Source: Ruegeria sp. YS9 (GTDB taxonomy: Bacteria; Pseudomonadota; Alphaproteobacteria; Rhodobacterales; Rhodobacteraceae). Taken from it: 64,000 bases of DNA. This document shows, one piece after another, positions 19,561-35,622 of this stretch (position 1 is the first letter of the stretch; the number at the start of each line of letters is the position of its first letter). The position numbers were made by a program, and so were the translations under genes. A model generated the notes under the pieces. The model was not told the origin of the DNA, ran no database searches, and saw only the letters and a program-made list of their open reading frames with translations. The stretch is from contig NZ_CP102409.1 of assembly GCF_024628725.1 (NCBI RefSeq), positions 1,831,001-1,895,000 of the forward strand. The letters are read 5' to 3'.

Positions 19561-19837
19561 CCTGAAATCTGGCAAGCTGGTACAGAACCATCTCAAAACA
19601 CTGACAATATTGCAGATCGTCAAACCCGGGTTCATCTGCCAGTGTCCTGTTTCGCGCAACGGCCATGAGTGAACCATTACCGTAAACCGGGTGGAGCTTG
19701 CCGGTGCGCTCCAAATGCCTGTCCGCCATTTCCGCCTCGTGGATCATCCGCACACACAAAGTCCCCCTGTCCGGCTGCGGCACGGCCAGCAAGGCGCGCG
19801 CCGCAGCACTGACATCCCCATGCAGAACCGGCCGCAT
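19541..19837 (-). CDS. Conserved GTA-linked protein, last gene of the cluster
   Basis: 98 residues from the ATG at 19837, which overlaps the megatron stop as TGATG. Key segments are VRMIHEAEMADRHLERTGK near 30 and HPVYGNGSLMAVA near 48. A protein of this type is conserved directly downstream of the megatron in Rhodobacteraceae GTA clusters; I believe it carries a DUF7742 label. Translational coupling implies coexpression with the particle. No catalytic motif or membrane segment is visible, and the function is unknown. Confidence 0.75.
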   Translation of the reverse strand: MRPVLHGDVSAAARALLAVPQPDRGTLCVRMIHEAEMADRHLERTGKLHPVYGNGSLMAVARNRTLADEPGFDDLQYCQCFEMVLYQLARFQASRTRS

Positions 19838-22800
19838 CAGGCAGCTTGCCCAACCGCAAGACGCGACCAAGCACCCGGTCCGAATACAGCAGATATCTGG
19901 GCCACTGCGACCTCATAGCCCCCGGACAGACCATCCGCCGCTTTCATGGCTGTCGAATAGGTCCACCTTGGTTCGGATGTCAGTTCTTCACGCAGAACGG
20001 TTCCACCCGCAATGACACGGACCAGATAGGATTCGCTTTCTTCGCCCAGGGGGATCTCCAGCCCCGACCAGTCATCCGCATCCGTTCGGGCACGTCGAAT
20101 CCACGTAAGCTCATCCCCGACGGCACCAGACCGAACCCGCATGTGCACAGGCGCGTAGGGGCGCAATCCGTTGCCTGCAAACGAGGCAATCAGGTGTTGA
20201 TAGGACGGATCATCATAGCCGCGGGTCGCAGGCCCAATGCGATAATGTTTGGCAAGACGTCTTTCGTTTCGCAACAGGCTGATCTGTTGCACCCTGTCAT
20301 TGAGCAGAACGAATACTGATCCATCCGGCCATACATCAGGCATCAAAGCGTCTGTTCCCAGTTGACCCCTGAGCCGCCCGGACAATGCGTATACATCCGT
20401 GGCCTCGAGCGCCGCGTCAGAGAACTGAAAAACTTCCCAGTTACCGGGTGTTCCGTCACCGATTGCAGCCAGATTGACGCCATTCATCACCGAGCTGCGC
20501 GGGCGGGATTCCAACTGACCTGCAAGCAGTTTGACCTTCAAGGCAGGGCCCTCATCCCAGACACCGATACTGGCGCGTCTCAGCGGTGTTTCGGTCACGC
20601 CGACCACGGCCCGCTGGGCAATGACGTCGCTCAGGCGATAGCTATCGTCGCTGGACGAAGAATAGACCGCTGCCGCCCCGGGCCATGGGTCTCCGGTAAC
20701 GGCCAGATAGGGCGCGTGAGGGGCCTCGGCCCCCGTGATCAAGGGCAGATCCAGAAAGACCGGCAGAACGGGGACCGGCGCGGCATAGGGTTTGACCGTT
20801 TCCGGGTCGTCATTCAATTCGGACGCCTTGTACACGCCCTGTTCGATCCGGACCGCTTCAACCAGTTGCAGGTCAGCGGATTCCAACCGGTCAATCCGGT
20901 AAACCGGCCCGGTTTCAGCGTCTGTCAAACGAACCAGATCCCCTGCCCCCAGGTGCATTTGAGACGGCGGAAGCGCAAACCGAACCGTATCGCGCGAAAC
21001 TCTGGCTTCGCTCAACCAGCGTTCGGCTGTTTGCCGCCCCTCGGTGCGGGTCATGGACAGGGGCATCTCATTCACCGATACGGAATGGGTGCGATCATCG
21101 GGCAAAACCGCCTCTTCCGCGACGACATCATGATCCGCATCCGACTGAACAAAGCGCAGACGAACGCGCCCGGTCATTTCGGCCTCGGCCTCACGCCGGT
21201 GTTCGACCGTCCCTTCAAGATCGCTGCTGATCGCCAGATGATCTGGGTTCAAGGCAACTGCGCCATACCCGTCGCGCATCTGGAACCTCAACACTCCGTC
21301 CCTTTCGATCGCATCAAACCCATAGCGCAGCATCAGCGGCTGCAAAGCGGAACGGGCGTTCGTCACGTCTTCGATGACATACCCGCGGACCACACCGTAC
21401 AGACCAGAAACGTCTATATCCGTGACACCTGCGCCGTGGCAGATTTCGGTCACCACGGAGGCCAACGTACGAGACCCGGACCGACCGTTCAGCCAGTGCC
21501 CTCTGGGATAGTTCTCGCCATCGTCCCACTGGCTTTTCAGGTTAGGAAAGGTCGGAAACGGACGGGTATCCCATGCCCAGACATACGCGTTTGCCATGTC
21601 CAGCATCGGCGCACCGTAGATGTCCGAGGTCGGATTGACCTTCGGATCGTTCCAATAGCCAAGCATCGCCGTCAGATACTGAACCTGAATGAAGTCGTCG
21701 CGCAGCCCGTTTGAATACGCGGGCAACAGCGATTCCGATGATTTCGGGTCCAGGAATTTGTTTGGCTGGTTCGTGCCTTTGTCGATTGCCGCGCAACCCA
21801 ACTCGGTGAACCAGATCGGTTTCGAGCCGGGCACCCAATCGGTCGGGTTGGGTTGACGCACGCCTCCGACCCGTTCGTGATGCGGATTCGACCACCAGTT
21901 TCGCAGGTCCTTGTATCGCCAGATCCACGGCTCGTCATGCCCCTGATCCTCGATCGGAGTCCTGATCTGCGCTTCCGCCTCTTCCGGAGAGGCGTAATAC
22001 CAGTCATACCCTTCACCGCCTTCGATATTGCTGCGAAGATACCCCAGGTCGTATATCGAAGGCGCGCCGGCCTCGGCGTCCAGATGGTGTTCACCGTCGC
22101 GCCAATCGGACAACGGCATGTAGTTGTCGATGCCGATGAAATCGATGTTGTCGTCCGCCCAAAGAGGGTCGAGGTGAAAATACCTGTCGCTGGTGCCCTG
22201 TGGCTGGTATCCGAAATACTCGCTCCAGTCCGCTGCATAGCCGATTTTCGTGTCCGGCCCCAGAATCTGACGGACCTCGGCCGCCAAGGCGCGAAGCTGC
22301 GCAACGGCTGGAAAGCCCGAAGCCCCCCTGATCTGGGTCAGGCCACGCATCTCGGACGAGATGCAGAATGACGAAACTCCGCCAGCAGCCTTGCACAGCA
22401 TGGCATAGTGCAGAATGAAACGCCGCAGGCCCCATTCCTGAGGGCCGGAATATGTGATGATTTCTTTGGCCGTGACTCCGCTGTCCCCCAGCAGCCCGCC
22501 AAAGGTACCGCCCCCGGAGACCCAGGTTAAACCGGTATCCCCTCTGTCGTCGGGCCGACCACCCGGTCTGGGCCTGACCAGACCACCCGAGCCACCGCCG
22601 GAGCCGCCCGATCCGTTCGTATCCTGGTTGATCGCAAAATCCTGCGCTCGAGCTGTTCCGAAGAACGCGGCGACCTGTGCATCGGCCGCGGCCGTCTGGT
22701 CCACAGAACCCGGACGCCCCGGCGCCACATCCAGGGTGATCCGCCCACGCCACGGCAGGTGAGGCTGACTTGACGCATCCGACCAGGGATCGGGCAGCCC

Positions 22801-23952
22801 ATTCCCCGGCAATTGCTCCATCAGGATGAATGGGTAAAACATCACCCGCTTGCCGGATTGGTTCAGATGCCGGATCGCCTCGACCACGGCCGCATCCGCC
22901 GGAGTTCCCCCATAGACCGGGCGGCCGTTCTGTCGCACCACAAGCCCGGCGCCGCTTCGGGCCTGATCAGATACGATCCAGGGCATATCGCTGCTGTCGA
23001 TCTCACGCTGTTCGATCTTGGGCCGAATTTCGCATTGCCCGCATCTCAGATCATTGCCGAACCACGACACCACCAATGATGCGGCATCACAATTGGGCAA
23101 CTCGCTTTCCAGCGCTCGGGTCGAGGAGACAAGATCCGAGGTGCCGGACGCGGAATGTGCGTTGGCAGGCCAGCTTTTACCAGATTGTGAATAATTCACC
23201 TGAGAGCTGGCCAGAGCATATTCTCCGGTCCCCGGTATCATGGCGACCCCGCGCACGACCTGAGGCAATGCACTGTCATGATCCGGCATGTCCCGCTGCG
23301 TGGGGCGAACAACTTCGAATGAAAACTGCGGCACCCGGTTGCCGAAAGCGCCGAGCGGGAAGTCCTCGATCACGACATAGGCGGTTCCGCGATACGCTGG
23401 AACTGTTCCCGCGCCTTCAATCGCCTCGATCAGCGGGTCCGGTAACTGATCCCACGTACCATGGTAAACCCGCATGTTGAGGCTGGATCGATCTTGTTCT
23501 TCTCCATCCGCCCAGATGCGCGCGACATCAGCAATCTCACCAGCGCCGACCGCAATCGCCAGCGAAATCGAGTAACTGTACGTGACGGTAGTCACCTCAG
23601 GGGTCTTGGGTTTCCCCTTGCCACCCCCGCCACCACCCTCTGTGGTGGTCGTCTGGGTCTCGAGAAAATCCGAAGCCCAAATGACCTGACCACCCACACG
23701 CATACGGCCAAACACGGTGGTCACCGGCGCACCTTCGCCGGTTTCCGTCAACCGAAACCGATCCATGCGGCCGGTTTCGACGACTTCACTGCCACTGCCC
23801 ATTACGGACTGGCTAAAGAACTTCTGGTCAAGGACCCGCCCGACCGTCGCACCGACGGCCCGACCGATAACTGCGGTTGAAAGGCCCGCGACCGTGCCCC
23901 CTATCGAACCGCCCAGCGCGGCCCCGGCTGCAGAAAGAAGAATAGTGGCCAT
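19837..23952 (-). CDS. GTA megatron tail protein (gp15) with TIM-barrel-like domain
   Basis: 1371 residues from ATG 23952, which follows the peptidase stop in a TGATG overlap; longer upstream starts would run through that gene. A glycine-zipper hydrophobic N-terminus (about 1-40) resembles a membrane-inserting element. A glycoside-hydrolase TIM-barrel-like domain (about 440-790) contains SSEMRGLTQIRG and WFTELGCAAIDKGTNQP. Phage-tail-type beta domains and a C-terminal region follow. In RcGTA gp15 forms the tip of the tail that contacts and penetrates the recipient; the same role is inferred here. It is the largest protein encoded in the window. Confidence 0.93.
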   Translation of the reverse strand: MATILLSAAGAALGGSIGGTVAGLSTAVIGRAVGATVGRVLDQKFFSQSVMGSGSEVVETGRMDRFRLTETGEGAPVTTVFGRMRVGGQVIWASDFLETQTTTTEGGGGGGKGKPKTPEVTTVTYSYSISLAIAVGAGEIADVARIWADGEEQDRSSLNMRVYHGTWDQLPDPLIEAIEGAGTVPAYRGTAYVVIEDFPLGAFGNRVPQFSFEVVRPTQRDMPDHDSALPQVVRGVAMIPGTGEYALASSQVNYSQSGKSWPANAHSASGTSDLVSSTRALESELPNCDAASLVVSWFGNDLRCGQCEIRPKIEQREIDSSDMPWIVSDQARSGAGLVVRQNGRPVYGGTPADAAVVEAIRHLNQSGKRVMFYPFILMEQLPGNGLPDPWSDASSQPHLPWRGRITLDVAPGRPGSVDQTAAADAQVAAFFGTARAQDFAINQDTNGSGGSGGGSGGLVRPRPGGRPDDRGDTGLTWVSGGGTFGGLLGDSGVTAKEIITYSGPQEWGLRRFILHYAMLCKAAGGVSSFCISSEMRGLTQIRGASGFPAVAQLRALAAEVRQILGPDTKIGYAADWSEYFGYQPQGTSDRYFHLDPLWADDNIDFIGIDNYMPLSDWRDGEHHLDAEAGAPSIYDLGYLRSNIEGGEGYDWYYASPEEAEAQIRTPIEDQGHDEPWIWRYKDLRNWWSNPHHERVGGVRQPNPTDWVPGSKPIWFTELGCAAIDKGTNQPNKFLDPKSSESLLPAYSNGLRDDFIQVQYLTAMLGYWNDPKVNPTSDIYGAPMLDMANAYVWAWDTRPFPTFPNLKSQWDDGENYPRGHWLNGRSGSRTLASVVTEICHGAGVTDIDVSGLYGVVRGYVIEDVTNARSALQPLMLRYGFDAIERDGVLRFQMRDGYGAVALNPDHLAISSDLEGTVEHRREAEAEMTGRVRLRFVQSDADHDVVAEEAVLPDDRTHSVSVNEMPLSMTRTEGRQTAERWLSEARVSRDTVRFALPPSQMHLGAGDLVRLTDAETGPVYRIDRLESADLQLVEAVRIEQGVYKASELNDDPETVKPYAAPVPVLPVFLDLPLITGAEAPHAPYLAVTGDPWPGAAAVYSSSSDDSYRLSDVIAQRAVVGVTETPLRRASIGVWDEGPALKVKLLAGQLESRPRSSVMNGVNLAAIGDGTPGNWEVFQFSDAALEATDVYALSGRLRGQLGTDALMPDVWPDGSVFVLLNDRVQQISLLRNERRLAKHYRIGPATRGYDDPSYQHLIASFAGNGLRPYAPVHMRVRSGAVGDELTWIRRARTDADDWSGLEIPLGEESESYLVRVIAGGTVLREELTSEPRWTYSTAMKAADGLSGGYEVAVAQISAVFGPGAWSRLAVGQAA

Positions 23953-24398
23953 CAATGCATCTCCATCGGGAATTCGAAACAGGAAACGATACGGCGGTAC
24001 CACGGCCTGCTCAGTGCGTTTTCCACCACGCCGTGGCCGGAATACGCGTGAATAAAGCGCGGCTCGGGTTGCGTGGTACTGACGATGCCCAGGTGTTTGG
24101 CGACGCTTGTGTCGCGCATCCGAAACAGCAGAACGTCCCCCGATGCCATCTTGCCTATTGGTTTTTCGACCAGATGCCGCCTGGCCGCCACCCACATCCG
24201 TTCCTCACCCTGCGGTTCGGACCAGTCCATGCTGTAGGCCGGAACAGATTCAGGTTCCCGCCCGATCACGGCGCGCCAAACGCCCCGCAACAGGCCCAGA
24301 CAATCCGCACCGGCACCTTTGACCGAGGCCTGATGCACATAAGGCGTTCCAAGCCATTCGCGCGCCTCTGTCACGATATCCTCTCTACGTATTGTCAC
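23952..24398 (-). CDS. GTA NlpC/P60 peptidase (gp14)
   Basis: 148 residues from a GTG start overlapping the previous stop by 4 bp. The NlpC/P60 catalytic triad is readable: C33 in GADCLGLLRG, H102 in AKHLGIVST and H117 in IHAYSGHG. It should cleave peptidoglycan stem peptides during DNA delivery through the recipient wall, acting with the megatron whose gene it overlaps by one base. Confidence 0.94.
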   Translation of the reverse strand: MTIRREDIVTEAREWLGTPYVHQASVKGAGADCLGLLRGVWRAVIGREPESVPAYSMDWSEPQGEERMWVAARRHLVEKPIGKMASGDVLLFRMRDTSVAKHLGIVSTTQPEPRFIHAYSGHGVVENALSRPWYRRIVSCFEFPMEMH

Positions 24399-25282
24399 CG
24401 TAAGCTGCCTCCGCTATTGGCTTTGCTTTTCTTGGGAACAGCCATGACCCAGTCTTCGCCCGGAAGATCTGGAAACCCTTGAAAATTCAAAAAGTTGTTG
24501 AACTTGAACTGGCAGGTTTCCATGCGCTTGTCGCATCCTGCCCGCAGCTTCACACTGTCGCCGATCGCCAGGCTTGCCCCGAAGCCGGACCAAAGCGTGA
24601 TCTCGCGCCCGGTTGCCGTCTGCCTGTCGTTCTTGATCGAAGACCACAACCCCTTGGCAGAACCGGACAAAACATCCACGCGCCCCCGTTCGAACCAGCC
24701 TTCTTCAATGGTCTGGCCTCCTGCGACATGCAGAAGGCTGCCGCCATCGAAACCCGAGATCACACCGTCGAACCAATACCCCGGCGTGTCGGTGTTGAAC
24801 CGGCAGGCCCGATCCCCCAACACAGCCGTGCAAGGCTTTTGGTAAACGCGCCCCAAAGGGCGGTTCAGCAAGTCGGTCAGGCCACGCAATTCCGCATGGA
24901 ACGCGCCGCCAGAGCGGCGCAACTCACCAATTGAACCCCGGAACTGAAGGACGCGTTGATCCAGATCTGTCCAGTTGACCAACCAGGCGCGCACCTCGGC
25001 CCCGTCAAAACGCCCCGCTTCGATATCCTCGTCGCGAATGGCCGCATCAGACAGGGCGCCCATCGCTTCCGTGTTGTCGATTGACAGACCCGTAGCCTGC
25101 TCGATGGCAGCGGCCGTCAGACCGGTACTGGCCTTGAAGGTCAACCCGTAAAAACTCAGCTCCATGTCGTGGTCGGTGAAACCGTATTCCTGACCGTCCG
25201 TGCGTTTGATCGCCCAACAGCGGCAGACCGTTGTCAACCCGCTTTGCAGATGCGCGTGCAGGCCCTGTATATCTTCAGCCAT
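24395..25282 (-). CDS. GTA baseplate hub protein (gp13), DUF2163
   Basis: 295 residues. DUF2163 N-terminal part (about 1-165), then a C-terminal phage BR0599-type region with cysteines (AGCDKRMETCQFKFNNFLNFQG near 265-285, quoted cysteines 20 or fewer residues apart). In RcGTA this is the hub that joins the distal tail protein to the megatron. One-base overlap with the DUF2460 gene upstream and four-base overlap with the peptidase downstream. Confidence 0.92.
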   Translation of the reverse strand: MAEDIQGLHAHLQSGLTTVCRCWAIKRTDGQEYGFTDHDMELSFYGLTFKASTGLTAAAIEQATGLSIDNTEAMGALSDAAIRDEDIEAGRFDGAEVRAWLVNWTDLDQRVLQFRGSIGELRRSGGAFHAELRGLTDLLNRPLGRVYQKPCTAVLGDRACRFNTDTPGYWFDGVISGFDGGSLLHVAGGQTIEEGWFERGRVDVLSGSAKGLWSSIKNDRQTATGREITLWSGFGASLAIGDSVKLRAGCDKRMETCQFKFNNFLNFQGFPDLPGEDWVMAVPKKSKANSGGSLR

Positions 25283-25914
25283 CAGATGCGCACCTCGACC
25301 ACTGGAACGTTCGGTACGTCGCCGGCCTGGAAACTTGCCACACTGGTCTGGATTTTGTCGGTGTCAAAACGCACCGGCACATCAAACTCAAAACCCGCGG
25401 TGATATCGACTTCTTCCGGCGGCGGGTCCGCAAACGTGACCTTACCCGTCGTCAGATCAACGTCAAAATCCACGCCCTCGCGGACCTCATCCTGATCCAG
25501 CCCCAGACGCACCGTCCCCAATACCGGTTTCACGATGGGGCGCGCATAGCTTACTCCGCCCGATTGGTAGGTCTTGATCAACTGGAATTCGGTGCGTGTT
25601 CCGTCGCCTTTGGCGATCACCTGATCTCCGAAACTGGTGTCCGCCGAGGCCTTGCCGGATTTGAAATCCGACCAGTCTTTCCAGCGAAAGCCGAACATCT
25701 GGCCCTGCCGTGCTTCGAAGAAGGAAATCAATGTCTCGATATCGTCCAGCGAACGCATCCCCAACCCCGCATCATATCGGCGGCGCGAATGGGCCCAGGG
25801 CGTGTTGCGCTCTTCAAAACCATTGGCCAGCGTCACGATGTCCGTGCGCCGTTCCGGGCCGCCGACCGAGCCAAAGCTCAGGCTGGCGGGAAATCTCACC
25901 TCGTGGAAATTCAT
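25282..25914 (-). CDS. GTA distal tail protein (gp12), DUF2460
   Basis: 210 residues, the usual DUF2460 size. Typical segments are NFHEVRFPASLSFGS at the N-terminus, EARQGQMFGFRWKDWSD near 70-86 and a C-terminal beta-rich part ending FEFDVPVRFDTDKI. It should form the ring at the lower end of the tail tube. ATG preceded by GGAG; it overlaps the hub gene by one base. Confidence 0.93.
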   Translation of the reverse strand: MNFHEVRFPASLSFGSVGGPERRTDIVTLANGFEERNTPWAHSRRRYDAGLGMRSLDDIETLISFFEARQGQMFGFRWKDWSDFKSGKASADTSFGDQVIAKGDGTRTEFQLIKTYQSGGVSYARPIVKPVLGTVRLGLDQDEVREGVDFDVDLTTGKVTFADPPPEEVDITAGFEFDVPVRFDTDKIQTSVASFQAGDVPNVPVVEVRI

Positions 25915-25929
25915 CAGCTGCTCCCTGAT

Positions 25930-26592
25930 TTATCTGTTGCGATTGCCGCGCCCTAACGCGCGGCTCATCTGGGCCGCTATCTGCCCCTGAGACCGGCGGA
26001 ACCCTTGCACGTCCGGTGTTGAAATGTTCATCACCACATTCACGGCACGCCCAGCGCCCTGCGTGCGCACACCCAGCTTGCCATCGGCCCCGCGCGCAAG
26101 CGGCATGATCGCCTCGGGCCCGGCTTCTCCCATCAGCCCGGTGCCTCCGCGCATGGGAAACGTTGTCGGGCCGCTGACCACACCGCCATTGGCGAAGGGC
26201 ATCACCCGGCCCTGGCTGAAGCTGCCGCCATCAGCAAAAGGCAGAATTCCCTTCACCAACCCGCCGACCGTGTTGGCCAGCATTCCTCCAAAGTGGTCCG
26301 TCACCGGCTTGATCGCGGCCGCATAAGCCGTTTGGATCAAGGAGTTCTTCAGGACATCCAGGGCACCGGAAAGACTCATCCCATCCAGAACGACACCATC
26401 GAAGGCCTTGCGCAATCCGCTGGACATGCCGCGCTCCAGCGTGGCGACATCCTTGCCGGTTTCTTCAAATGCGGCGCTGATGCGCTTCATCTGGCTGTCA
26501 AACGCCGCCGCCATCGTCGCAGCATCGCCGAGGGAATCGCCCAGCGCTTCGCCTCGTTCTTGCAGGTCATCAAACCCGTCACGATCTGTCAT
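25930..26592 (-). CDS. GTA tape measure protein (gp11)
   Basis: 220 residues from ATG 26592 (MTDRDGFDD), chosen because the 15 residues before it are encoded by the overlapping upstream gene. Helical N-terminus (about 10-80), then a glycine-rich C-terminal part with GGTGLMGEAGPEAIMPLARG near 155, a hallmark of lambda-like tape measure proteins. Tape measure length sets tail length, so so short a protein predicts a very short siphovirus-like tail, as in RcGTA. Confidence 0.93.
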   Translation of the reverse strand: MTDRDGFDDLQERGEALGDSLGDAATMAAAFDSQMKRISAAFEETGKDVATLERGMSSGLRKAFDGVVLDGMSLSGALDVLKNSLIQTAYAAAIKPVTDHFGGMLANTVGGLVKGILPFADGGSFSQGRVMPFANGGVVSGPTTFPMRGGTGLMGEAGPEAIMPLARGADGKLGVRTQGAGRAVNVVMNISTPDVQGFRRSQGQIAAQMSRALGRGNRNR

Positions 26593-26788
26593 CACGCTCT
26601 CCTTGTGTCTTGTCCGGATAAGCCGCCAGCAAGGCATCCAACCCCGCCCGGTTCATTGCAGACGCTCCGGACCCCTGCCCCAGCATCAGCCGCAGCTCTG
26701 CCGGGGTCAGACGCCAGAATTGATCCGGCGTCAGTCGCAGCCCCAGAAACCCGGCCCGCATAAGGGCAGGCCAGTCGAACCCGCTCAT
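26579..26788 (-). CDS. GTA tail assembly chaperone-like protein (gp10.1, rcc01693 type)
   Basis: 69 residues. The core GLRLTPDQFWRLTPAELRLM (about 15-34) is the typical block of this small family, found between gp10 and the tape measure gene in GTA clusters. It overlaps both neighbours (4 bp and 14 bp). By position it should act like the phage G/GT chaperones during tail tube assembly. Confidence 0.9.
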   Translation of the reverse strand: MSGFDWPALMRAGFLGLRLTPDQFWRLTPAELRLMLGQGSGASAMNRAGLDALLAAYPDKTQGERDDRS

Positions 26789-27105
26789 GTGCCCTCCGGC
26801 ACCATGAAGGCGCGCGCCAACAATTCGGCTGCGGTTCTGGCGGCAGCCATGGGGCCGCCTTCAATCTCGGCATGCATCAGGTCGGCCCGGGCAATGTTCC
26901 AGCCACCGCCCCGCAAACCGGCAACGATCAGCGCCAGAACATCCGCACTGGAATACGCACCGCCCTCGAACCGCTGCACCAGCTCAACCAGCGACCCAGC
27001 ATTCAGCTCCTGCTCCAGCTCCGCCAAAGCACCCAGCGTCAGTTTGAGCACCCGCTGCTCGCCATCGATGGTCAGCGCCACCTCGCCTGTCCACGGATTG
27101 GCCAT
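26785..27105 (-). CDS. GTA tail protein gp10, chaperone-like
   Basis: 106 residues. Typical gp10 features are GEVALTIDGEQRVLKLTLGA at the N-terminus and LVELVQRFEGGAYSSADVLA near 40-60. It resembles GTA gp10 proteins, thought to be the tail assembly chaperone that works with gp10.1. It starts 4 bp after the major tail protein gene. Confidence 0.9.
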   Translation of the reverse strand: MANPWTGEVALTIDGEQRVLKLTLGALAELEQELNAGSLVELVQRFEGGAYSSADVLALIVAGLRGGGWNIARADLMHAEIEGGPMAAARTAAELLARAFMVPEGT

Positions 27106-27109
27106 CGGA

Positions 27110-27523
27110 TCAAAGCGCCGTAAAGGTCAGAGCACCGGCACTGGCCATGCTCATCTCATAGGTCGCCTCACCGTTGTGCGAGCCCGCATATTCGATGCTG
27201 GTCACCTGGAACGGACCTTCAACAATCCCGAAATCAGGGATGATGACCTGAAAAGCCGGAGTTTCGCCATCAAAGAACAACTGCCGCGCACGCTCATCCG
27301 TGCCGGCATCCTTGAACACGCCAGAGCCAGAGATCGAAGCCGATTTGACCCCCGCCCCGGACAAAAGCTCGCGCCATCCACCCTGGCTTTCCAGACTGGT
27401 GACATCCACACTTTCAGCATTGAAACTTATGCGCGTGGCCCGCAGCCCCGCGATGGTCTGGAACAGGCCGGTTCCGTTCATATCCATTTTGACCAACAGG
27501 TCTTTTCCGTTCTGGGCAGCCAT
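27110..27523 (-). CDS. GTA major tail protein (gp9), TP901-1 family
   Basis: 137 residues, the usual size. Starts MAAQNGKDLLVKMD, with VDVTSLESQGGWRELL near 40-55 and GPFQVTSIEYAGSHNGEATY near 105-125, typical of the TP901-1-type tail tube protein. Its subunits stack to form the tail tube. GGAGAGA precedes the ATG. The spacing from gp8 (20 bp) allows independent, strong initiation, consistent with a high-copy structural protein. Confidence 0.94.
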   Translation of the reverse strand: MAAQNGKDLLVKMDMNGTGLFQTIAGLRATRISFNAESVDVTSLESQGGWRELLSGAGVKSASISGSGVFKDAGTDERARQLFFDGETPAFQVIIPDFGIVEGPFQVTSIEYAGSHNGEATYEMSMASAGALTFTAL

Positions 27524-27543
27524 GTGCTCTCTCCGTTGATTGC

Positions 27544-27957
27544 TTAGTCATCTTCCACGCGAGCGCGGAACTTCAGGTCGATCTGGCGGATGGTGCCGCC
27601 GGTCCCGGTGCGTCGGGCCGAGGCCCGCTCGAACCACAGCCCCACCAAACGCCCGCGAAGCAGGTTGAGTGGCGCGTTTTCCAGCGCGTCACACACCGCG
27701 CCGGCCAGTGTTTTGGCAGCACCGAACCCTGCCTCCTGGGACACCACCGAAACGGTGAAGCGGTGTATCGCGCCCGTGCCTGTTCGGTCCGACGCGTCAC
27801 GCACCTCTTCGGGGCCCAGCGTCACATAGGTCTGCGGCACGGTTCCCGCGGGTACGGCATCATAGATCGCGCCCCCCGATTGGCTGCTGACTGCTGCGTC
27901 CGCTGCAAGCTGTTGATACACGGCCGCCTGCAATGCGGCGGAAACGCCATAGCTCAT
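27544..27957 (-). CDS. GTA tail terminator (gp8), DUF3168
   Basis: 137 residues matching DUF3168: AVYQQLAADAAVSSQSGGAI near 10-30 and HRFTVSVVSQEAGFGAAKTL near 65-85. In RcGTA it closes the tail tube at the head interface. It overlaps the head closure gene by ATGA. Confidence 0.92.
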   Translation of the reverse strand: MSYGVSAALQAAVYQQLAADAAVSSQSGGAIYDAVPAGTVPQTYVTLGPEEVRDASDRTGTGAIHRFTVSVVSQEAGFGAAKTLAGAVCDALENAPLNLLRGRLVGLWFERASARRTGTGGTIRQIDLKFRARVEDD

Positions 27958-28292
27958 GCCGCCACCTCTTCATCTGCGAAACAGGTCAGGAACTTGCCGC
28001 GCGGGTCACGCTCGGCCACGGCGCGGATTACGAAACAGCGATTTCCCTCGCGAAACCGCTGATCCGGCGCGGGGCGCATCGAAGAACCCATGGGCGCACC
28101 GCGTACCACGATGCGGTACCCGACACGCGACACGGACGCTCCGGCGATCTGCCGTTCCGCCCCACTGCGCGCCGTCACCTCGGCCCACAGTGTCCCCATC
28201 GCAGCCCATGTTTGAGTATAGCCCCCCGCCCCATCAGCAGTTCGCGTTGGCGCCTCCAGCACCAATTTACGGTTCAGATGCGGCGTGTTCAT
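27954..28292 (-). CDS. GTA head closure / adaptor protein (gp7)
   Basis: 112 residues from ATG 28292 (MNTPHLNRKLVLE), which overlaps the upstream stop by 4 bp. Segments DGAGGYTQTWAAMGTLWAEV (about 20-39) and a C-terminal strand pattern match phage head closure (SPP1 gp16-like) proteins. It should sit between the connector and tail terminator rings. Confidence 0.9.
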   Translation of the reverse strand: MNTPHLNRKLVLEAPTRTADGAGGYTQTWAAMGTLWAEVTARSGAERQIAGASVSRVGYRIVVRGAPMGSSMRPAPDQRFREGNRCFVIRAVAERDPRGKFLTCFADEEVAA

Positions 28293-28888
28293 TGCGATAC
28301 CCCCGCCCCGAAACGCACCATGCGATGGCGCTGGATCAGGCTGGTGACACCAAAGGGCATACAACCCGCGCCCAACGAGGTTTCATCCCGGTATTCATAG
28401 TAATGCGCCGCCAGCAGCAGCACGGCTTGCCCAAGATCGGCAGGCAGCCCGCCCCAATCCTGCGCCATCCCCGCGACAAACGAGATCTTTACGGAACCAC
28501 CCGTTTCGATGGCAGGCAGGCTGGATCCCAATGGGCGTATCCGGGGCCGCTGGCTGTCATGCTCCAGCCGATAGGTCGCAGCGTCTGCAACTGTTTCGGC
28601 TCCTTGCTTGTCAGTCAGCGTCACAGCCTGAACTGAAACCACCGGGGCCACAGGCAGCACTTCGCCCGACGGGTCGCGCCACCTGTTCAAACTCCACGAG
28701 AAATCCCGTGTGTTCAGAACCGTGCCAGTGCGCGCCTCGATCGCCGCAATGGCGGCCCGCAGGAACCCCTTCAACACTTCATTCTGCACATCATCCTCGG
28801 CAAAGCCCGTGCCCAACCTCAGATGCGCCTTGAACTGATCCACCGGCAGCGCCGCATCCGCGATGGCGGTCTCTTCGATCAACATCAT
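28289..28888 (-). CDS. GTA head-tail connector protein (gp6)
   Basis: 199 residues from ATG 28888, which has GGAG at 7-nt spacing; a second ATG follows immediately. Helical core ALPVDQFKAHLRLGTGFAED near 13-32 and AAIAAIEARTGTVL near 50 are typical of phiE125 gp8-like connectors. It forms the adaptor ring below the portal. It is the first gene after the 170-bp structured gap behind the capsid gene. Confidence 0.92.
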   Translation of the reverse strand: MMLIEETAIADAALPVDQFKAHLRLGTGFAEDDVQNEVLKGFLRAAIAAIEARTGTVLNTRDFSWSLNRWRDPSGEVLPVAPVVSVQAVTLTDKQGAETVADAATYRLEHDSQRPRIRPLGSSLPAIETGGSVKISFVAGMAQDWGGLPADLGQAVLLLAAHYYEYRDETSLGAGCMPFGVTSLIQRHRMVRFGAGVSQ

Positions 28889-29058
28889 CCACTCACTCCG
28901 CAATCTCGGACCCCTCCAGGGCCCCATCTTTGGAAATTGGCGGGCACGCGCCGCCCCACGTTGCTCGGACGGAGGGGAGCAGCTAGACAACGCAGAGGAT
29001 CTCACTCCGGCCCGCGCCCGCCGTCCGAGGGGCCAGGGCCCCCCGGATTCAGCCCGCG
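28889..29058 (-). repeat. GC-rich inverted-repeat region between capsid and connector genes
   Basis: A 170-bp non-coding gap in an otherwise tightly packed GTA operon. It contains the inverted repeat CTCGGACGG / CCGTCCGAG about 50 bp apart, the near-inverted pair GGCGGGCGCG / CGCGTGCCCGCC, and two copies of GGGCCCTGG. It can fold into one or more strong hairpins on the minus-strand transcript just after the capsid stop. There is no T run, so partial termination or RNA processing is more likely than full termination. Confidence 0.7.
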
Positions 29059-30237
29059 TTAAGCGGTGCCGAATTTCAACAGCTTGATCGCAGCAAAATC
29101 GCTGACATCGCCGCCGACGCGTTTGGTCGCATAGAACAGGACATGTGGCTTGGCGCTGAACGGATCGCGCAGCACGCGCAAATCAGGACGCTCGGCAATG
29201 GTGTAACCGGCCTGGAAGTCACCAAAGGCAATCGAGAAACTGTCGGTTGCCACATCCGGCATGTCCTCGGCGATCAGAACCGGATAGCCCATCAGACGCG
29301 CCGGCTCACCTGCGGCCAGACCATCGGACCACAGGAAGCGGCCATCACTGTCCTTCAACTTGCGGATCACACCTGCGGTCTTCGAATTCATCACGAAGGT
29401 CCCGTTGACCCGGTATTGCGCGCCCAGCGCATAGACCACATCGACAATCGCATCCGCATCAATACCCGCATCAATACCGGTCGCGACATAACCAAGGCTG
29501 CCCCAGGACCAGCCATCATTCGGAACCGCGCGGTGGATCATCAACCCCTTGGGCTTGTCGACGCCATCGCCGTTGATGAAAGCCGCCGCCTCGGCGCGTG
29601 CAAACTTGTCGGCAATGCGCCCGGCCAGCCAGCCCTCGACATCGAAGGCGCTGTCATCCAGCAGACGCTGCGACGCTTTGGGCAGCGCGCTCAGCTCGTG
29701 CAGCGGGATCGAGATGCGATCGATCGACGGCGTTCCGGTTTCCGCCGTGGCCGAGTTTTCGTCCGCCCAGCCCGCACCTACATCGGTGTGATCGATCAGC
29801 ACGTCGAACGAATTTGCCTCGACATTCACGACCGATGCAATCGAACGGATCGAGGCGGTCGAGTTCAAAACCGACTTGATCGTCTCGGCAGTCTGCGGAT
29901 CAACCAGATAGCCACCATCGCTGTTGACCGCTGTTGACAGGGACTTGGCCTCCATCTCGAGTCCACGCAGCCCGTCATCTTCGCCGGACCGCACATAGGC
30001 GTCAAATGCCTTCTGATGCGGGGCTCCGTCTTCGATCGAAGCGGCAAGATGCGGGCGTGCCGCGATTGTTGATTTACGATCCAGCATGGTCAGTCGCTCT
30101 TCTGTCTGTTGCAGTTTGGTGTTAACTTCGGCTTTCAGGCCCTTGAATTCATTCACGAAGCCAGCCATCGCCTGCTTCACCTCCTGAACCAGGGGCGCAC
30201 CCTCTCCGGTCAAGGCCGGGGTTTCGGTCTTGCTCAT
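29059..30237 (-). CDS. GTA major capsid protein (gp5), HK97 fold
   Basis: 392 residues from ATG 30237 (MSKTETPALTGE), which has AGGAC at good spacing; an ATG two codons earlier sits too close to it. A helical delta/scaffold region (about 10-60, coiled coil) is probably removed by the protease. The HK97-type capsid domain (about 100-390) includes NSDGGYLVDPQTAETI near 105 and EGWLAGRIADKFARAEAAAF near 190. It forms the small GTA head. Confidence 0.96.
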   Translation of the reverse strand: MSKTETPALTGEGAPLVQEVKQAMAGFVNEFKGLKAEVNTKLQQTEERLTMLDRKSTIAARPHLAASIEDGAPHQKAFDAYVRSGEDDGLRGLEMEAKSLSTAVNSDGGYLVDPQTAETIKSVLNSTASIRSIASVVNVEANSFDVLIDHTDVGAGWADENSATAETGTPSIDRISIPLHELSALPKASQRLLDDSAFDVEGWLAGRIADKFARAEAAAFINGDGVDKPKGLMIHRAVPNDGWSWGSLGYVATGIDAGIDADAIVDVVYALGAQYRVNGTFVMNSKTAGVIRKLKDSDGRFLWSDGLAAGEPARLMGYPVLIAEDMPDVATDSFSIAFGDFQAGYTIAERPDLRVLRDPFSAKPHVLFYATKRVGGDVSDFAAIKLLKFGTA

Positions 30238-30271
30238 CAGCATGTCCTGTTCTGAGTGGTTTTGAGGCGCG

Positions 30272-30817
30272 CTAGTTCCGCGCCAGCTCCTGCCGGGCAT
30301 CGTTGAATACGTCGGCAATACAGCGCAGGGCTTCCTCGGCGTCAGGTGTCCTTCCCTTCGCCGCCACCCGCGCACTGGGCAGCATTGGGAAGGTCACCAA
30401 TGACACCTCCCACAGCTCCAGTTCGGTCAGGACCCGCTGGCCCTTGTCATTCTTCACGGCCCGCTTGGTGCGATAACCGATCGACAGACCATCCATCGCA
30501 CCCGCCCGGATCAATTCTGCCGCTTCGCGGCCCTTCTGCGTGCTCTCCAGCAGACGCCCCTTGACCCACAGCCCCTTGTCGTCCTCGCGTACTTCGTCCC
30601 ACACGCCGATGGGCTGGGTCGGATCGTGCTGCCACAGCATCTTGACCCGCTGACCGGCCGCCTTCAGCCCGTCAAGCGAGCTTTGATACGCCCCACGCTG
30701 GACCACGTCACTGCCCTGATCGACCTGCCCAAACAGGCTCGCATAGCCCTCGATTACCGCATCGTCCGTAACCGACAAACTGTCGCCGAACCGTGCGAAC
30801 TTATGTTCCAAATCCAT
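30272..30817 (-). CDS. GTA prohead protease (gp4), HK97 family
   Basis: 181 residues from ATG 30817 (MDLEHKFARFGD), supported by GGAG at 6-nt spacing. An ATG at 30847 would overlap the previous stop as ATGA and add 10 residues. The catalytic residues of HK97 U35 proteases are readable: H64 in WQHDPTQPIG and S112 in MDGLSIGYR. It trims the capsid N-terminus during maturation. Confidence 0.94.
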   Translation of the reverse strand: MDLEHKFARFGDSLSVTDDAVIEGYASLFGQVDQGSDVVQRGAYQSSLDGLKAAGQRVKMLWQHDPTQPIGVWDEVREDDKGLWVKGRLLESTQKGREAAELIRAGAMDGLSIGYRTKRAVKNDKGQRVLTELELWEVSLVTFPMLPSARVAAKGRTPDAEEALRCIADVFNDARQELARN

Positions 30818-30843
30818 GAACTTCTCCATGCAACCCATTGAAC

Positions 30844-31062
30844 TCATGGCGCCACCACCAAGAGAGATTGAAACGCCTGCGCCAGGATCACCGCCGCCAC
30901 GCCATAGACTGTCAGCCACAGCCGGCGCTCCAGCCGCTCCATCATCTCTTCGATCTGATCCAGACGCCGGCACAGATGTGCATGCTGGATCTCGGCCACC
31001 CGCTCATGCGCGGCCAGACGCAGACCTGGCGCGCACTCGAACGAGGGATACCCCTCACCCAT
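30844..31062 (-). CDS. GTA head formation protein (rcc01685 type, gp3.5)
   Basis: 72 residues from ATG 31062, overlapping the portal gene end by 8 bp. The N-terminus MGEGYPSFECAPG is followed by a helix-rich part and one C-terminal transmembrane-like segment (about 50-68, YGVAAVILAQAFQSLLVV). It matches, by position and size, the small protein between portal and protease in RcGTA that is needed for heads. The mechanism is unknown. Confidence 0.85.
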   Translation of the reverse strand: MGEGYPSFECAPGLRLAAHERVAEIQHAHLCRRLDQIEEMMERLERRLWLTVYGVAAVILAQAFQSLLVVAP

Positions 31063-32215
31063 CCGCGCGCTCCGGCAGGCCCAGCAAGGCACGCTTCTCG
31101 GCATCGGTCAGGAAGTCGGCCCCATTGACCCGCGCCCATTGCGCATCCCGTTCTGCGGACAGCGCAGGCACCTGATCCAGGTCAGGCTTCAACACCAGCT
31201 CCTCGCCGGTAAAGCCCGCCAGCCAGTCCGACACCGCCGCCGCCACCCGCGTCACCAGAGGCAGAACAGTCAGGCGATAGAACGCCCGGTTGGCCTCCTG
31301 ATAGTTCGAATAGGTCGCGTCGCCTTGTATCCCCAGCAGCATCGGCGGGACGCCGAAGGCCAGCGCGATCTCGCGGGCGGCGGCTTCCTTGGTCTTTTGA
31401 AACTCCATATCGGACGGAGAGAACCCCATCGGCTTCCAATCCAGCCCCCCTTCCAGAACCATCGGACGGCCTGCATTGCGCGCCCCGCGATAGTTCTGCT
31501 CGATCTCGTCTGACAGACGCCGGAACTGATCTTCGGCCATCACCCCATTGCCATCACCTTTCCAGACCAGCGCCCCCGAAGGCCGCGCCGCATTGTCCAG
31601 CAGCGACTTCGACCAGCGCGACGCGCTGTTATGCACATCAATCGCCATTGCCGCCGCCTGCATCGGCGAGAACCCGTAATGGTCATCCTGAGGGTGGAAC
31701 GATTTGATATGGCAGATGTTTTCCGCCGCAAACCGATGCTTCTTGCCGCCAACCGCATAGTCATACGCCTTGGGCCACCCATCCGCCCCCGGCACCACGC
31801 TCATCCGATCAGATCGCAGCACGTGCAGCTCGACCGGCAGGCCTTCCTCGGCCTGAACCGCCTCGACATAGGCATTGCCCGACAGCAGCAATTGCCCGAA
31901 CAAGGCCTCCATCAACTCCGCTTGCCCCTGCGCCGCATTCGGACGGCGCATCAGGGACAGGATCGGATGGGTCTCATAGCGCTGCGCCTGATCCTGCAAC
32001 ACCAACGGCAAAGCCGCCGCCGCCTCGGCAATCAGCTTGACGGAACGAAACCCCACCGGGTTCCCCGAAAACCCCGTCCGCGTCAGCGATACTGCATCCC
32101 TGGGGCTCCAGGCCACGCGCCCGCCCGTCTGCCACGCCACCACCGGCCCCGCCGCGCTTGCTTTTGCCTCGGGCGCCGCTTCAGCCGATCCACGACGCAA
32201 GAAATCGAATACCAT
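31055..32215 (-). CDS. GTA portal protein (gp3)
   Basis: 386 residues. HK97-type portal: SLTRTGFSGNPVGFRSVKLI (about 44-63), CHIKSFHPQDDHYGFSPMQA (about 170) and EIALAFGVPPMLLG (about 288) are diagnostic. A dodecameric ring at one capsid vertex is expected. AAGGAG precedes the ATG, one of the best ribosome-binding sites in the cluster. Unusually, the gene upstream on this strand (large terminase) is more than 1.1 kb away because a transporter gene lies between them. Confidence 0.96.
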   Translation of the reverse strand: MVFDFLRRGSAEAAPEAKASAAGPVVAWQTGGRVAWSPRDAVSLTRTGFSGNPVGFRSVKLIAEAAAALPLVLQDQAQRYETHPILSLMRRPNAAQGQAELMEALFGQLLLSGNAYVEAVQAEEGLPVELHVLRSDRMSVVPGADGWPKAYDYAVGGKKHRFAAENICHIKSFHPQDDHYGFSPMQAAAMAIDVHNSASRWSKSLLDNAARPSGALVWKGDGNGVMAEDQFRRLSDEIEQNYRGARNAGRPMVLEGGLDWKPMGFSPSDMEFQKTKEAAAREIALAFGVPPMLLGIQGDATYSNYQEANRAFYRLTVLPLVTRVAAAVSDWLAGFTGEELVLKPDLDQVPALSAERDAQWARVNGADFLTDAEKRALLGLPERADG

Positions 32216-32394
32216 CTGTGCTCCTTTCTGCCGCCGCTCTGCCCGGCTTGTTGAAAGGAGTTATGACGGAAAGAAGTTTAGGGCTTTGGAATAGGGCGTA
32301 CGGGGGTTGGGCAACACGGACAACCAAAGTGGGTGGCCAATTCCGAATGGATGGCTATTGGTAAAAGTACTGAAAGCAAAGCGGGACCGATCGA

Positions 32395-33363
32395 ATGACC
32401 CAGCCAGAATTGGCCATCAGAAAACGACTGGAAAGCCGCGCACTCGTGGTAGCAATGGGAGGAAATCTCTTCATGGGTGCCGCTGGAATCCTGGCCAGCA
32501 TTCTGTCGAATTCGAACGCGATCATGATGGACGGACTGTTCTCACTGATCGGTTTTACTTCAGCCGTTCTCGGCCGAAGGATCAGCCAACGAATTGATGC
32601 CGGACCCGACAAGTTAAGACCGTTCGGCTATGCCGCAGACGAAGCCATCTTTTCAACACTCCGCTCTCTATCCTTGTTGGGTCTTGTATTGTTCGCGATC
32701 ACCAGCGCCCTCAAAAGCATCTACAACTATCTGAACGGCCTGCCCCCCGAACCATTGAGCTTTGCGCCAATGATCCTCTATTTCTCAGGGATCGGGCTGA
32801 CCTGCACCTTGCTCTGGGCCTTTCATCATTTCACCTGGCGTCGCATCGGTCGAAACAGCTCAATCCTGCGACTGGAGGCCAAAGCGGCGCTTTTTGACGG
32901 GATGATCACTGCGGCGGCAGGCATCGGCCTGGCTGCCATCTACTTTTTCAGGGAAGGACCACTTGCTTTGATCGCTCCGATCGGGGACTCCGTGATTGTC
33001 CTACTGCTTTGCCTGCTGGCCCTCGGGGCTTATATCCGTGAATTCAAAGGCGGATTGGGCGAGCTTGCAGGGTTAAGCGCCAGCCCTGCCACTATCGCGA
33101 CCGCGCGCCGCGCAGTACGTGCAACTCTCATTGAATATGGCGGGCGGATCCGGGATCTGTCTGTTACCAAACTGGGCCGTTCCCATTTAGTGACTGTTTA
33201 CTACGACCCATGTCGTTCCGTTCTCGCGCACGAAATCGACCGCCTCAACCTGGATTTGATACGCGATGTTCGAACCGTATTGGCCGGGGCTGACGTTCTG
33301 CTGATTGTCTCTGAACATCCCAGACGATGGCCAGATGAACTCGCCCCTGTCCAAAGCGCTTGA
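32395..33363 (+). CDS. Cation diffusion facilitator-like membrane protein inserted in the GTA cluster
   Basis: 322 residues with about six transmembrane helices (roughly 17-40, 44-60, 85-110, 123-145, 162-185, 195-215) and a C-terminal cytoplasmic domain (about 230-322), the CDF architecture. The canonical zinc-site pairs are degraded. The helix II motif is MMDGLFS, with the first aspartate kept and the second replaced. Helix V AALFD keeps the aspartate but has alanine where histidine is expected. The transported ion is therefore uncertain. It is on the strand opposite to the GTA genes, ending 19 bp from the large terminase stop. Base composition is slightly less GC-rich than the flanks. Confidence 0.85.
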   Translation: MTQPELAIRKRLESRALVVAMGGNLFMGAAGILASILSNSNAIMMDGLFSLIGFTSAVLGRRISQRIDAGPDKLRPFGYAADEAIFSTLRSLSLLGLVLFAITSALKSIYNYLNGLPPEPLSFAPMILYFSGIGLTCTLLWAFHHFTWRRIGRNSSILRLEAKAALFDGMITAAAGIGLAAIYFFREGPLALIAPIGDSVIVLLLCLLALGAYIREFKGGLGELAGLSASPATIATARRAVRATLIEYGGRIRDLSVTKLGRSHLVTVYYDPCRSVLAHEIDRLNLDLIRDVRTVLAGADVLLIVSEHPRRWPDELAPVQSA

Positions 33364-33382
33364 TGTGTTTGCCGCAATGGGC

Positions 33383-34798
33383 TCACAAAGCCCGCACCCT
33401 CGGCCTTCTAAACACCCCAGCAGGCCCCACAACCAACTCATGCAGCGCCCAGACCAGCGCGTCGACCCGGTCGGGCGAGCCCTGCCCCTCGAACCCCGTC
33501 GCGGTCATCTGGCACATCTGCTCCTCCAGAGCGTCCAGCCCGGAGACATGCGCCACCCGCCCCTGCTCGTACAACGCTGCCACAGGCTCGGCCCGCGCCA
33601 CCTTACCGCGTGACGCCCGCACCGCCCGATAAGGGACCAGAGGGTCTACCTGCCGCACGACCTCTTCCACCAGTTGCCCGCCCTGATTGACCTCGGCCAC
33701 CAGCCGCTCGGCCCCGAACTCATCCATCGCGTCAATCGCCGCCTGCGCCCAGCCCGCAGGACCCACGCCCTGCACCGTGCGGTCGGCCAGCACATAGGCC
33801 CGCCACGCCTCGGGCGGCCCCTGCACCTGCGCGCCAACCACCACGATCCCGCAAGCATCCGCGCCTGAACCGGACGTCACCGCCGGGTCCAGCGCCACAA
33901 CGACCCGATCAAGATCGGGCACCTGCGCACAGCGCGCCGCTTCCAGCATGGACCCCGTCCACAGCGCCCCCTCGGCATCCGACAGCAGCACCCCGTCCAA
34001 CTCCTGCCGCCCCAGCCGCGTGCCCGCATAACGCGCGCGCACCTCTTCCAGAAACGAGTCCGCCAGATTGGCCCGGTTCGCCTCGGTCGGCGCATGGGTC
34101 TGCACCGTGGAGGGCGACGCCAGCAAATCCTTCAAAACCTTCACGTTACGCGGTGTCGTGGTCACACAGACCCGAGGCCGCTCGCCCAGCCGCAACGCAA
34201 ATTGCAGCATGTCCCAGGTCTCACCCGCTTTCTTCCACTTGGCCAGCTCATCCACCCAGGCCGCATCGAATTGCGGGCCGCGCAGCCCCTCGGGGTCATG
34301 CGCGGAAAAGGCCTGCGCCTCAGCCCCGTTGGGCCAGACCAGCTTGCGCTCTGATGCCTTCCACTGCGGCCGACGATCCGGAGGCGAGCATTGCAATATC
34401 CCGCTGTCGCCAAAGATCATCACATCGCGCACCTGATCGAATGTCTCACCCACCAAGGCCACCCGACAGGCCTGGCCCTTATCCAACGGCAAAGACCCCT
34501 CGACCATCTGTCGCACCCACTCGGCCCCGGCGCGCGTCTTGCCCGCACCGCGCCCCCCCATGATCACCCAGGACCGCCAGTCGCCCTCTGGCGGCAACTG
34601 ATGCGGCAGCGCCCAGAATTCGAACAGGAAAGGGAGGGCACACAGCCCTCCCTCCCCGATCTCACTCAGAAATCTGTTCTGCACCGCAACAGGCGCGGAG
34701 GCGAGCCAGCCTGCACCCGACTTCAAACCGAGCTCGGTCAAGGTCGAGCGCGTACCCACCTTGTGCAATTCCGGCTTGTCTGTGATGTTGTTCGACAA
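33383..34798 (-). CDS. GTA large terminase subunit (gp2)
   Basis: 471 residues if translation starts at TTG 34798; GTG 34759 is an alternative. Walker A GGRGAGKT at 81-88, Walker B-like FDAAWVDELAKW near 175 and the RNase H-like nuclease motif VVALDPAVTSGS near 297. It packages host DNA headfuls into GTA heads and cuts it. The reading frame overlaps the small terminase gene by 137 bp in another frame. The gene that should follow, portal, is separated from it by the inserted transporter gene. Confidence 0.94.
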   Translation of the reverse strand: MSNNITDKPELHKVGTRSTLTELGLKSGAGWLASAPVAVQNRFLSEIGEGGLCALPFLFEFWALPHQLPPEGDWRSWVIMGGRGAGKTRAGAEWVRQMVEGSLPLDKGQACRVALVGETFDQVRDVMIFGDSGILQCSPPDRRPQWKASERKLVWPNGAEAQAFSAHDPEGLRGPQFDAAWVDELAKWKKAGETWDMLQFALRLGERPRVCVTTTPRNVKVLKDLLASPSTVQTHAPTEANRANLADSFLEEVRARYAGTRLGRQELDGVLLSDAEGALWTGSMLEAARCAQVPDLDRVVVALDPAVTSGSGADACGIVVVGAQVQGPPEAWRAYVLADRTVQGVGPAGWAQAAIDAMDEFGAERLVAEVNQGGQLVEEVVRQVDPLVPYRAVRASRGKVARAEPVAALYEQGRVAHVSGLDALEEQMCQMTATGFEGQGSPDRVDALVWALHELVVGPAGVFRRPRVRAL

Positions 34799-35024
34799 AG
34801 CTTGTCTCCACTTTCTGACAACTTCGGATCAGCCCCTCTAACTGCCCGAGTTGCTTGGCTGAACCAGCAAGATCTGCATCCTCCCCGGCTCCGATCTGTT
34901 TGCGCAGGTCTTCCGCCGCTTGCCGCAGATCGCGAATGGACCTCTCAAGCGACTGCAACAATTCAGCCGTCTGGGAAATCCGCTCTTCCGGGGTAATCAA
35001 AGTCATGTTTGCCTGTGACCTCAT
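34662..35024 (-). CDS. GTA small terminase subunit (gp1, TerS-like)
   Basis: 120 residues from ATG 35024; ATG 35006 is also possible. A helical N-terminal part with EERISQTAELLQSLERSIRD and a C-terminal block YALDLDRARFEVGCRLARLR fit GTA gp1, the small terminase that activates the packaging ATPase; RcGTA gp1 has lost sequence-specific recognition. It is the first gene of the cluster, 80-100 bp downstream of the proposed promoter, and its 3' end overlaps gp2. Confidence 0.85.
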   Translation of the reverse strand: MRSQANMTLITPEERISQTAELLQSLERSIRDLRQAAEDLRKQIGAGEDADLAGSAKQLGQLEGLIRSCQKVETSFVEQHHRQAGIAQGGYALDLDRARFEVGCRLARLRACCGAEQISE

Positions 35025-35109: not shown

Positions 35110-35152
35110 ATTAGTACGGAATTACGCACGTAATGTCAATAAGTTACGCAAC
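35110..35152 (-). promoter_or_regulatory. Probable GTA promoter with operator-like palindromes
   Basis: On the minus strand a consensus -35 TTGACA (35139-35134) and a -10-like ACTAAT (35115-35110) are 18 bp apart. Between them lies the inverted repeat ATTACG-N2-CGTAAT (35121-35134). A second near-palindrome GTTACGCAAC (35143-35152) lies just upstream of the -35. TTACGCA occurs at 35122 and 35144, 22 bp apart, two helical turns. Binding at these sites would block polymerase. The nearest downstream gene is gp1. The regulator is unknown. Confidence 0.65.
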
Positions 35153-35205
35153 ACGAGCGCAACGCAGGGCGACCGCTGTGTTGAGTATTCCTTTACCTGA
35201 TGCTC

Positions 35206-35583: not shown

Positions 35584-35599
35584 GAGGCTTCCTTTTTAT

Positions 35600-35610
35600 C
35601 TAAAATTTAG
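35600..35610. promoter_or_regulatory. AT-rich palindrome between VOC gene and its divergent regulator
   Basis: CTAAA-A-TTTAG is centred in the 39-bp divergent gap, with TATACT just beyond it towards the regulator gene. It is the natural candidate operator for the adjacent winged-helix protein. Confidence 0.5.
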
Positions 35611-35622
35611 CTACTATACTTT

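Follow-up and report, generated by a model that had tools for sequence, protein, structure and literature searches.

How a GTA cluster can be read across a foreign gene lodged between its large terminase (g2) and portal (g3) is the question raised by the locus considered here. The DNA analysed, hereafter the window, is a 64,000 nt stretch of Ruegeria sp. YS9, for which a preliminary description reported an intact plus-strand CDF-like gene parting the minus-strand g2 and g3, two genes that we take to adjoin in RcGTA. Open reading frames and Pfam matches confirm this arrangement, and the coordinates (Table 1) bear out the 19 bp said to separate the stop of the CDF gene from that of the terminase; the stretch intervening between terminase and portal is exactly 32216..33382. 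Three possibilities had been raised on this basis: that the block from portal to megatron has a promoter of its own, that the transporter is silenced when GTA is made, and that the gene is inserted cargo which the cluster tolerates.

The genes on either side follow the conserved g1–g15 head–tail order of an RcGTA-like cluster. A further hallmark of such clusters, a predicted GafA-type activator, is represented elsewhere in the genome (G000:C1:1310273) by a gene matching DUF6456 (PF20057, 210 bits), which we take to be the GafA/GafZ domain; amongst 14 control genomes this domain is matched in Caulobacter only. The system thus resembles RcGTA and other Rhodogtaviriformidae-type GTAs in its g1–g15 order, with terminase, portal, protease and capsid, and in its DUF6456 (GafA-type) gene, but differs from RcGTA in that cargo separates g2 from g3. 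Just upstream of the cluster (35206–36159) lie a glyoxalase-like gene on the minus strand and an HxlR-type regulator on the plus strand.

Table 1. Features of the GTA cluster and its cargo slot, numbered from the first letter of the window
Feature	Position	Strand	Basis
Probable main GTA promoter region	35111..35163	-	GTTGC twice, TTGACA and TACTAA; putative promoter role
GTTGC boxes of main promoter region	35163-35159 and 35152-35148	-	Read directly
TTGACA of main promoter region	35139-35134	-	Read directly
TACTAA of main promoter region	35116-35111	-	Read directly
g1, small-terminase position	34662..35006	-	ORF with no Pfam match; place ahead of g2 constant in 38 genomes
g2, GTA large terminase	33383..34798	-	PF03237 and PF17289
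Cargo slot, insert from terminase stop to portal leader	32316..33382		Length and sequence edges
Cargo gene, CDF-family transporter (predicted)	32395..33363	+	322 aa, ATG start; PF01545 Cation_efflux match
Conserved portal leader, probable second promoter or regulatory element	32216..32315	-	Identity across 29 genomes
GTTGC of portal leader	32315-32311	-	Within 32216..32315
CGTACG of portal leader	32302-32297	-	Within 32216..32315
g3, GTA portal	31055..32215	-	PF04860, 317.7 bits; TIGR01537, 229.8 bits
g3.5 to g15, including protease g4, capsid g5 and megatron g15	19837..31104	-	ORFs with constant spacing in 34-37 genomes; Peptidase_S78 and Phage_capsid matches (Pfam); numbers after g5 given by order

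The product of the cargo gene is assigned to the CDF family by its Cation_efflux domain, which scores 69.1 bits against a Pfam cut-off of 26.6; TIGR01297, a broader NCBIfam model, gives 55.2 bits, under its cut-off of 82.35. From family membership, the protein would be expected to transport metal. By eye, the residues of its metal site look atypical of what we take to be the family pattern, and no relatives were found in the PDB at E ≤ 0.001. The leader previously ascribed to this gene is real inasmuch as 179 bp precede its start, but it is shared, the portal-side 100 bp (32216..32315) being the conserved leader of the portal. The same family is present at the same junction in four other species (G035, G032, G012 and G015). 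Slot copies fall into two clades, though they may derive from one origin, and dN/dS values between close copies are 0.04–0.18. Across 54 Ruegeria genomes the CDF protein is matched in 24, and 24 of the 29 places listed lie outside the slot, including copies about 108–116 kb from the portal in G006, G011, G017 and G040.

The same 54 genomes were searched with terminase, portal and CDF. The terminase is matched in 53, with 14 of these harbouring a fragment only and no portal match; the portal is matched in 39, beside the terminase in 38 and apart from it in one (G036). Every one of the 38 genomes with adjacent g2 and g3 carries an insert, measuring 554–2968 bp from terminase stop to portal ATG. 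This slot occupies a single position: elsewhere between g1 and g15, the 13 remaining junctions vary in length by at most 14 bp (34–38 genomes). The GC content of the insert is below that of the terminase throughout (38/38; medians of 0.49 vs 0.66). Two hallmarks of a phage moron are present in all 38 genomes, namely a foreign gene inserted where relatives have two genes adjoining, and a base composition unlike that of the host element. Comparison of junctions across genomes, as proposed in the preliminary description, gives a divided answer, in that the slot is conserved throughout these Ruegeria whilst the CDF gene within it is not. The view of the latter as tolerated cargo is supported, and can be widened to a genus-wide slot holding 23 cargo types in 38 genomes.

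These types are a grouping of our own, with DNA similarity across types seen only amongst G014, G043 and G045. The CDF gene occupies five slots, a short-chain dehydrogenase four and an unassigned 242-aa protein three. Two genomes each carry a luciferase-domain protein, a DUF4189 protein, a SUKH protein, an unassigned 217-aa protein, a 110-aa lipoprotein-like protein or a 144-aa protein, and single cases include DUF2971, Hint plus isochorismatase, nucleotide cyclase, DUF4274 and methyltransferase-like genes. Twenty cargo proteins were scanned with Pfam; the labels of G016 and of one G045 gene were given by eye. No function common to the cargo of the 38 slots was found. Cargo opposes the GTA genes in 26 slots, lies only on their strand in 11 and on both strands in one, and each type keeps one orientation. 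Many opposed genes end 0–28 bp from the terminase stop, and in G013 the opposed frame extends antisense beyond it. The slots of G014 (L141) and G043 (L135) have a 533 bp DNA segment in common despite their different cargo, which suggests stepwise stacking. A defence island was considered and rejected, PADLOC matching one of 10 cargo proteins scanned (the DUF2971 protein, as PDC-S31). The differences in cargo between species, alongside purifying selection on the GTA genes, would accord indirectly with cargo that the GTA itself may not need.

With regard to the wider family, 246 Rhodobacteraceae genomes were drawn, with the portal matched in 196 and the terminase in 203; junctions were taken from the matches listed, comprising at least 132 for the portal and at least 127 for the terminase. 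Amongst these, both genes lie on one contig and strand in 123 other genera, and are arranged otherwise in 4. Extending the junction comparison to these 123 genera gives a median g2/g3 gap of 152 bp, with an insert of at least 550 bp in four, among the matches listed; gaps are distances between match ends and possibly tens of bases too long. Four genera other than Ruegeria, represented by G080 (L172), G196 (L183), G133 (L184) and G244 (L185), have 0.7–5.9 kb at this junction. In IMG/VR, 80 loci were present among the matches listed, 12 of them without a usable terminase, and 63 of the other 68 fall below 90 % portal identity. The median gap of these 63 is 156 bp, with one of at least 550 bp, whereas the five Ruegeria-like loci measure 969–2968 bp and four of them repeat cargo of the genus survey, among the loci listed.

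Similarity between Ruegeria genomes stops at the terminase stop and returns at a portal leader of about 100 bp. Lone same-strand cargo genes, found in 11 genomes, respect this boundary, stopping 112–197 bp before the portal ATG and outside the leader. Amongst the 29 genomes with the same leader end, pairwise identity of the leader is 93.3 %, as against 75.7 % at third positions of the portal, and the leader is recognisable in genera without an insert. It harbours a pattern, GTTGC-N6-10-CGnnCG, in 35 of 38 Ruegeria, in 14 of 20 outgroup junctions (5 of the 20 loci having been picked for long junctions) and in 31 of the 63 IMG/VR junctions, with fewer than one expected per set; 3, 6 and 32 junctions, respectively, are unmatched, the IMG/VR figures applying among the loci listed. 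The Ruegeria and outgroup leaders served to define this pattern, which leaves the IMG/VR count as the only near-independent one. Upstream of g1, 37 of 38 Ruegeria carry a double GTTGC; amongst other loci only 2 of 18 do, and the pair was therefore rejected as a general GafA box.

The explanation that we consider probable, if well short of assured, is that g2/g3 is the boundary of two transcription units, which in Ruegeria has become a moron-like slot with cargo turnover. The GTA would be read as g1–g2 from the main promoter and g3–g15 from the conserved leader before the portal, with a GafA-type antiterminator possibly adding read-through into the portal unit. A foreign gene would harm neither unit, because the portal unit would start from its own leader and a GafA/GafZ-type activator may carry polymerase through; foreign single genes could therefore sit between terminase stop and leader, on either strand, with GTA expression unbroken. 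Cargo would first have been taken up at this junction early in Ruegeria and replaced many times since, probably by way of homologous recombination within the conserved genes on either side. On this view the cargoes, about 23 in all, are alternatives to one another, and the CDF gene among them would be retained for the benefit of the cell rather than for GTA function.

Judged from sequence, the portal leader is a probable second promoter or regulatory element. The separate promoter earlier envisaged for the portal-to-megatron block gains indirect support from the age and conservation of this leader and from genomes in which g3–g15 is detached, whilst a plain sigma-70 consensus scan of the window gave no sigma-70-like hit in either the slot or the leader. 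Splits were inspected in G036, G263 and G153, with G170 cut at a contig end and G213 left out. In G036 (L166, L150), g1–g2 and g3–g15 lie on two different large contigs, well inside their ends, and g3 retains a leader with GTTGC. In G263 (L268, L269), about 4.5 kb separates the starts of the two blocks, which run in opposite directions; the leader pattern is unmatched before the detached g3 at the set spacing. G153, with its blocks on different contigs and the leader element present, is probably a further case, albeit an ambiguous one, as only 545 bp of contig lie upstream of its portal. From the splits in G036 and G263, g3–g15 would seem to be a unit able to be expressed on its own, provided that those GTAs are functional.

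These genomes also bear on an unlikely, though serious, alternative, in which the junction is an ordinary permissive hotspot where genes are gained and lost neutrally after an early insertion in Ruegeria. There would then be no second promoter, and an antiterminating polymerase starting at the promoter of g1 would transcribe the cluster from end to end. Antitermination by GafZ is described across the Caulobacter GTA cluster, with the authors suggesting the same for GafA, in the portion of that report available (PMC11150451). The DUF6456 gene and the leader's lack of a consensus promoter would both accord with such a scheme. It accounts poorly, however, for the strong conservation of the leader and for the detachment or inversion of g3–g15 relative to g1–g2 in G036 and G263. 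Moreover, cargo dN/dS is 0.04–0.25 in the 16 pairs tested; these cargo pairs are under purifying selection, as are the GTA genes (median dN/dS of 0.084 for g2, 666 pairs), which argues against neutral passengers.

Amongst Ruegeria without a portal, eight (L153–L157, L159, L160 and L161) share one in-frame junction between terminase and megatron g15. The resulting chimeric frame, open over 845–848 codons, has terminase residues 1 to ~186 followed by the C-terminal portion of g15, starting at ~795, and the two parts show median dN/dS values of 0.079 (28 pairs) and 0.080 (the 22 pairs whose dS is finite). It may be a conserved chimeric remnant of a GTA since deleted; alternatively, the deletion may have been retained whilst its flanks recombine. 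Four others (L152, L158, L164 and L165) have lost the GTA core with different breakpoints, from the terminase interior to inside or just before g14/g15, and represent separate losses of this one stretch, in each of which g1 is retained.

Turnover of the cargo is apparent from a tree of g2, g3 and g5 built for 37 of the 38 genomes (G002, with a partial portal match, was left out). Sister GTAs often differ in cargo, as in the starred pairs G043/G046, G048/G033, G022/G023 and G050/G040, and distant ones sometimes share it. G034 carries other cargo though it lies inside a CDF-bearing clade; a CDF remnant was sought in G034 without success (best E 1.1). Of the nine cargo types found in several genomes, eight could be assessed on the tree and the dehydrogenase type alone forms one clade. 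Overall, cargo labels are mildly clustered, requiring 14 changes against a mean of 16.3 when shuffled, a value as low arising in 13 of 200 shuffles. Cargo is held in common by 7 of 9 pairs with dS below 0.25, by none of 15 between 0.25 and 0.4, and by 17 of 642 above this. Two cargo families are confined to the slot (3/3 and 2/2 places in the 54 genomes searched), and a third has two of its three places there. Recent flank-borne exchange was looked for as a route for these changes and is not seen: the flanks of 11 distant pairs with the same cargo are no more alike than those of 640 other pairs (permutation p 0.97). The dS of shared cargo is often equal to or greater than that of the flanks.

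A second alternative is that the arrangement is kept for antisense coupling, with opposed cargo silenced at GTA expression or the cargo transcript dampening the terminase. The prevalence of opposed cargo (26/38, plus the one slot with both strands) would accord with such coupling, and the ending of many of these genes so close to the terminase stop leaves little room for a terminator. Same-strand cargo alone in 11 slots, the lack of a common cargo function and the absence of the insert from other genera (at least 550 bp in 4 of 123, among the matches listed) nevertheless make this very improbable. Silencing of the transporter when GTA is made, as the preliminary description had it, accordingly does not hold as a general role, because the cargo differs between species and is not uniformly opposed; it cannot explain the slot, although a local antisense effect on the CDF gene in this strain is possible. 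Scarcely credible is a site-specific cassette system, integron-like or with an att site at the junction: both slot edges look sharp, at terminase stop and leader, but edge words match no better than chance (mean of 6.2 vs 6.1 in shuffles, with one 10 bp repeat in 1 of 38), leaving edge repeats and att sites rejected, no recombinase or transposase family is matched in the 20 cargo proteins scanned with Pfam, and each cargo type keeps one orientation.

The reading as a moron-like slot between two units has parallels in known systems. In the accessible text on accessory (moron) loci of phages, such as the P22 late region (PMC3573128, PMC7067206), single foreign genes of other base composition lie between structural genes that adjoin in relatives, and relatives carry different genes at the same place. 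The Ruegeria case differs from what is described there in that the host element is a GTA, there is one slot only, it is filled in all 38 genomes examined, and a promoter or terminator of its own is putative. RcGTA-like clusters of Agrobacterium and Rhizobium have a lysozyme between large terminase and portal (PMC11409702), a gene likewise outside the GTA structural set and at the same junction; in the available part of that account one phage-related gene recurs in several strains, whereas in Ruegeria the occupant changes from one species to the next among unrelated genes of non-phage type. P2-like phages and P4-like satellites, in so far as the excerpted source covers them (PMC9122126), also hold varying accessory genes at one fixed position of the element, but the Ruegeria cargo is, by the PADLOC scan, mostly not defence-like. 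An extra gene at g2/g3 is thus already in print; no description of a variable slot in a GTA cluster, genus-wide or otherwise, was recognised in the literature searched, in which subscription journals are thinly covered.

It is conceivable, though improbable, that GTA particles themselves spread this exchangeable slot. RcGTA particle DNA is given as ~4.4 kb in the accessible text of PMC6209664. A fragment spanning the terminase, the cargo and the portal would fit this size, coming to about 3.6 kb for a slot of median length. Were the slot spread in this manner, the conserved flanks would supply homology for swapping, the particle would set the limit on insert size, which does not exceed 3.0 kb, and linked cargo of use to the cell would favour retention of the GTA cluster. 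In the models of the same source, as far as its available text goes, gene exchange alone gave no reason for such retention (PMC6209664). Against this idea stands the lack of flank homogenisation in the 11 distant pairs with the same cargo.

A GTA cluster is commonly depicted as a single, rigid operon. The presence of one hypervariable slot, fixed in position across a genus at the seam of two apparent units, suggests instead a GTA of more than one unit, and places a predicted second promoter within a stretch of about 100 bp. The slot is also relevant to why GTAs are retained by cells, and offers a natural marker of allele exchange within particle-making genes.
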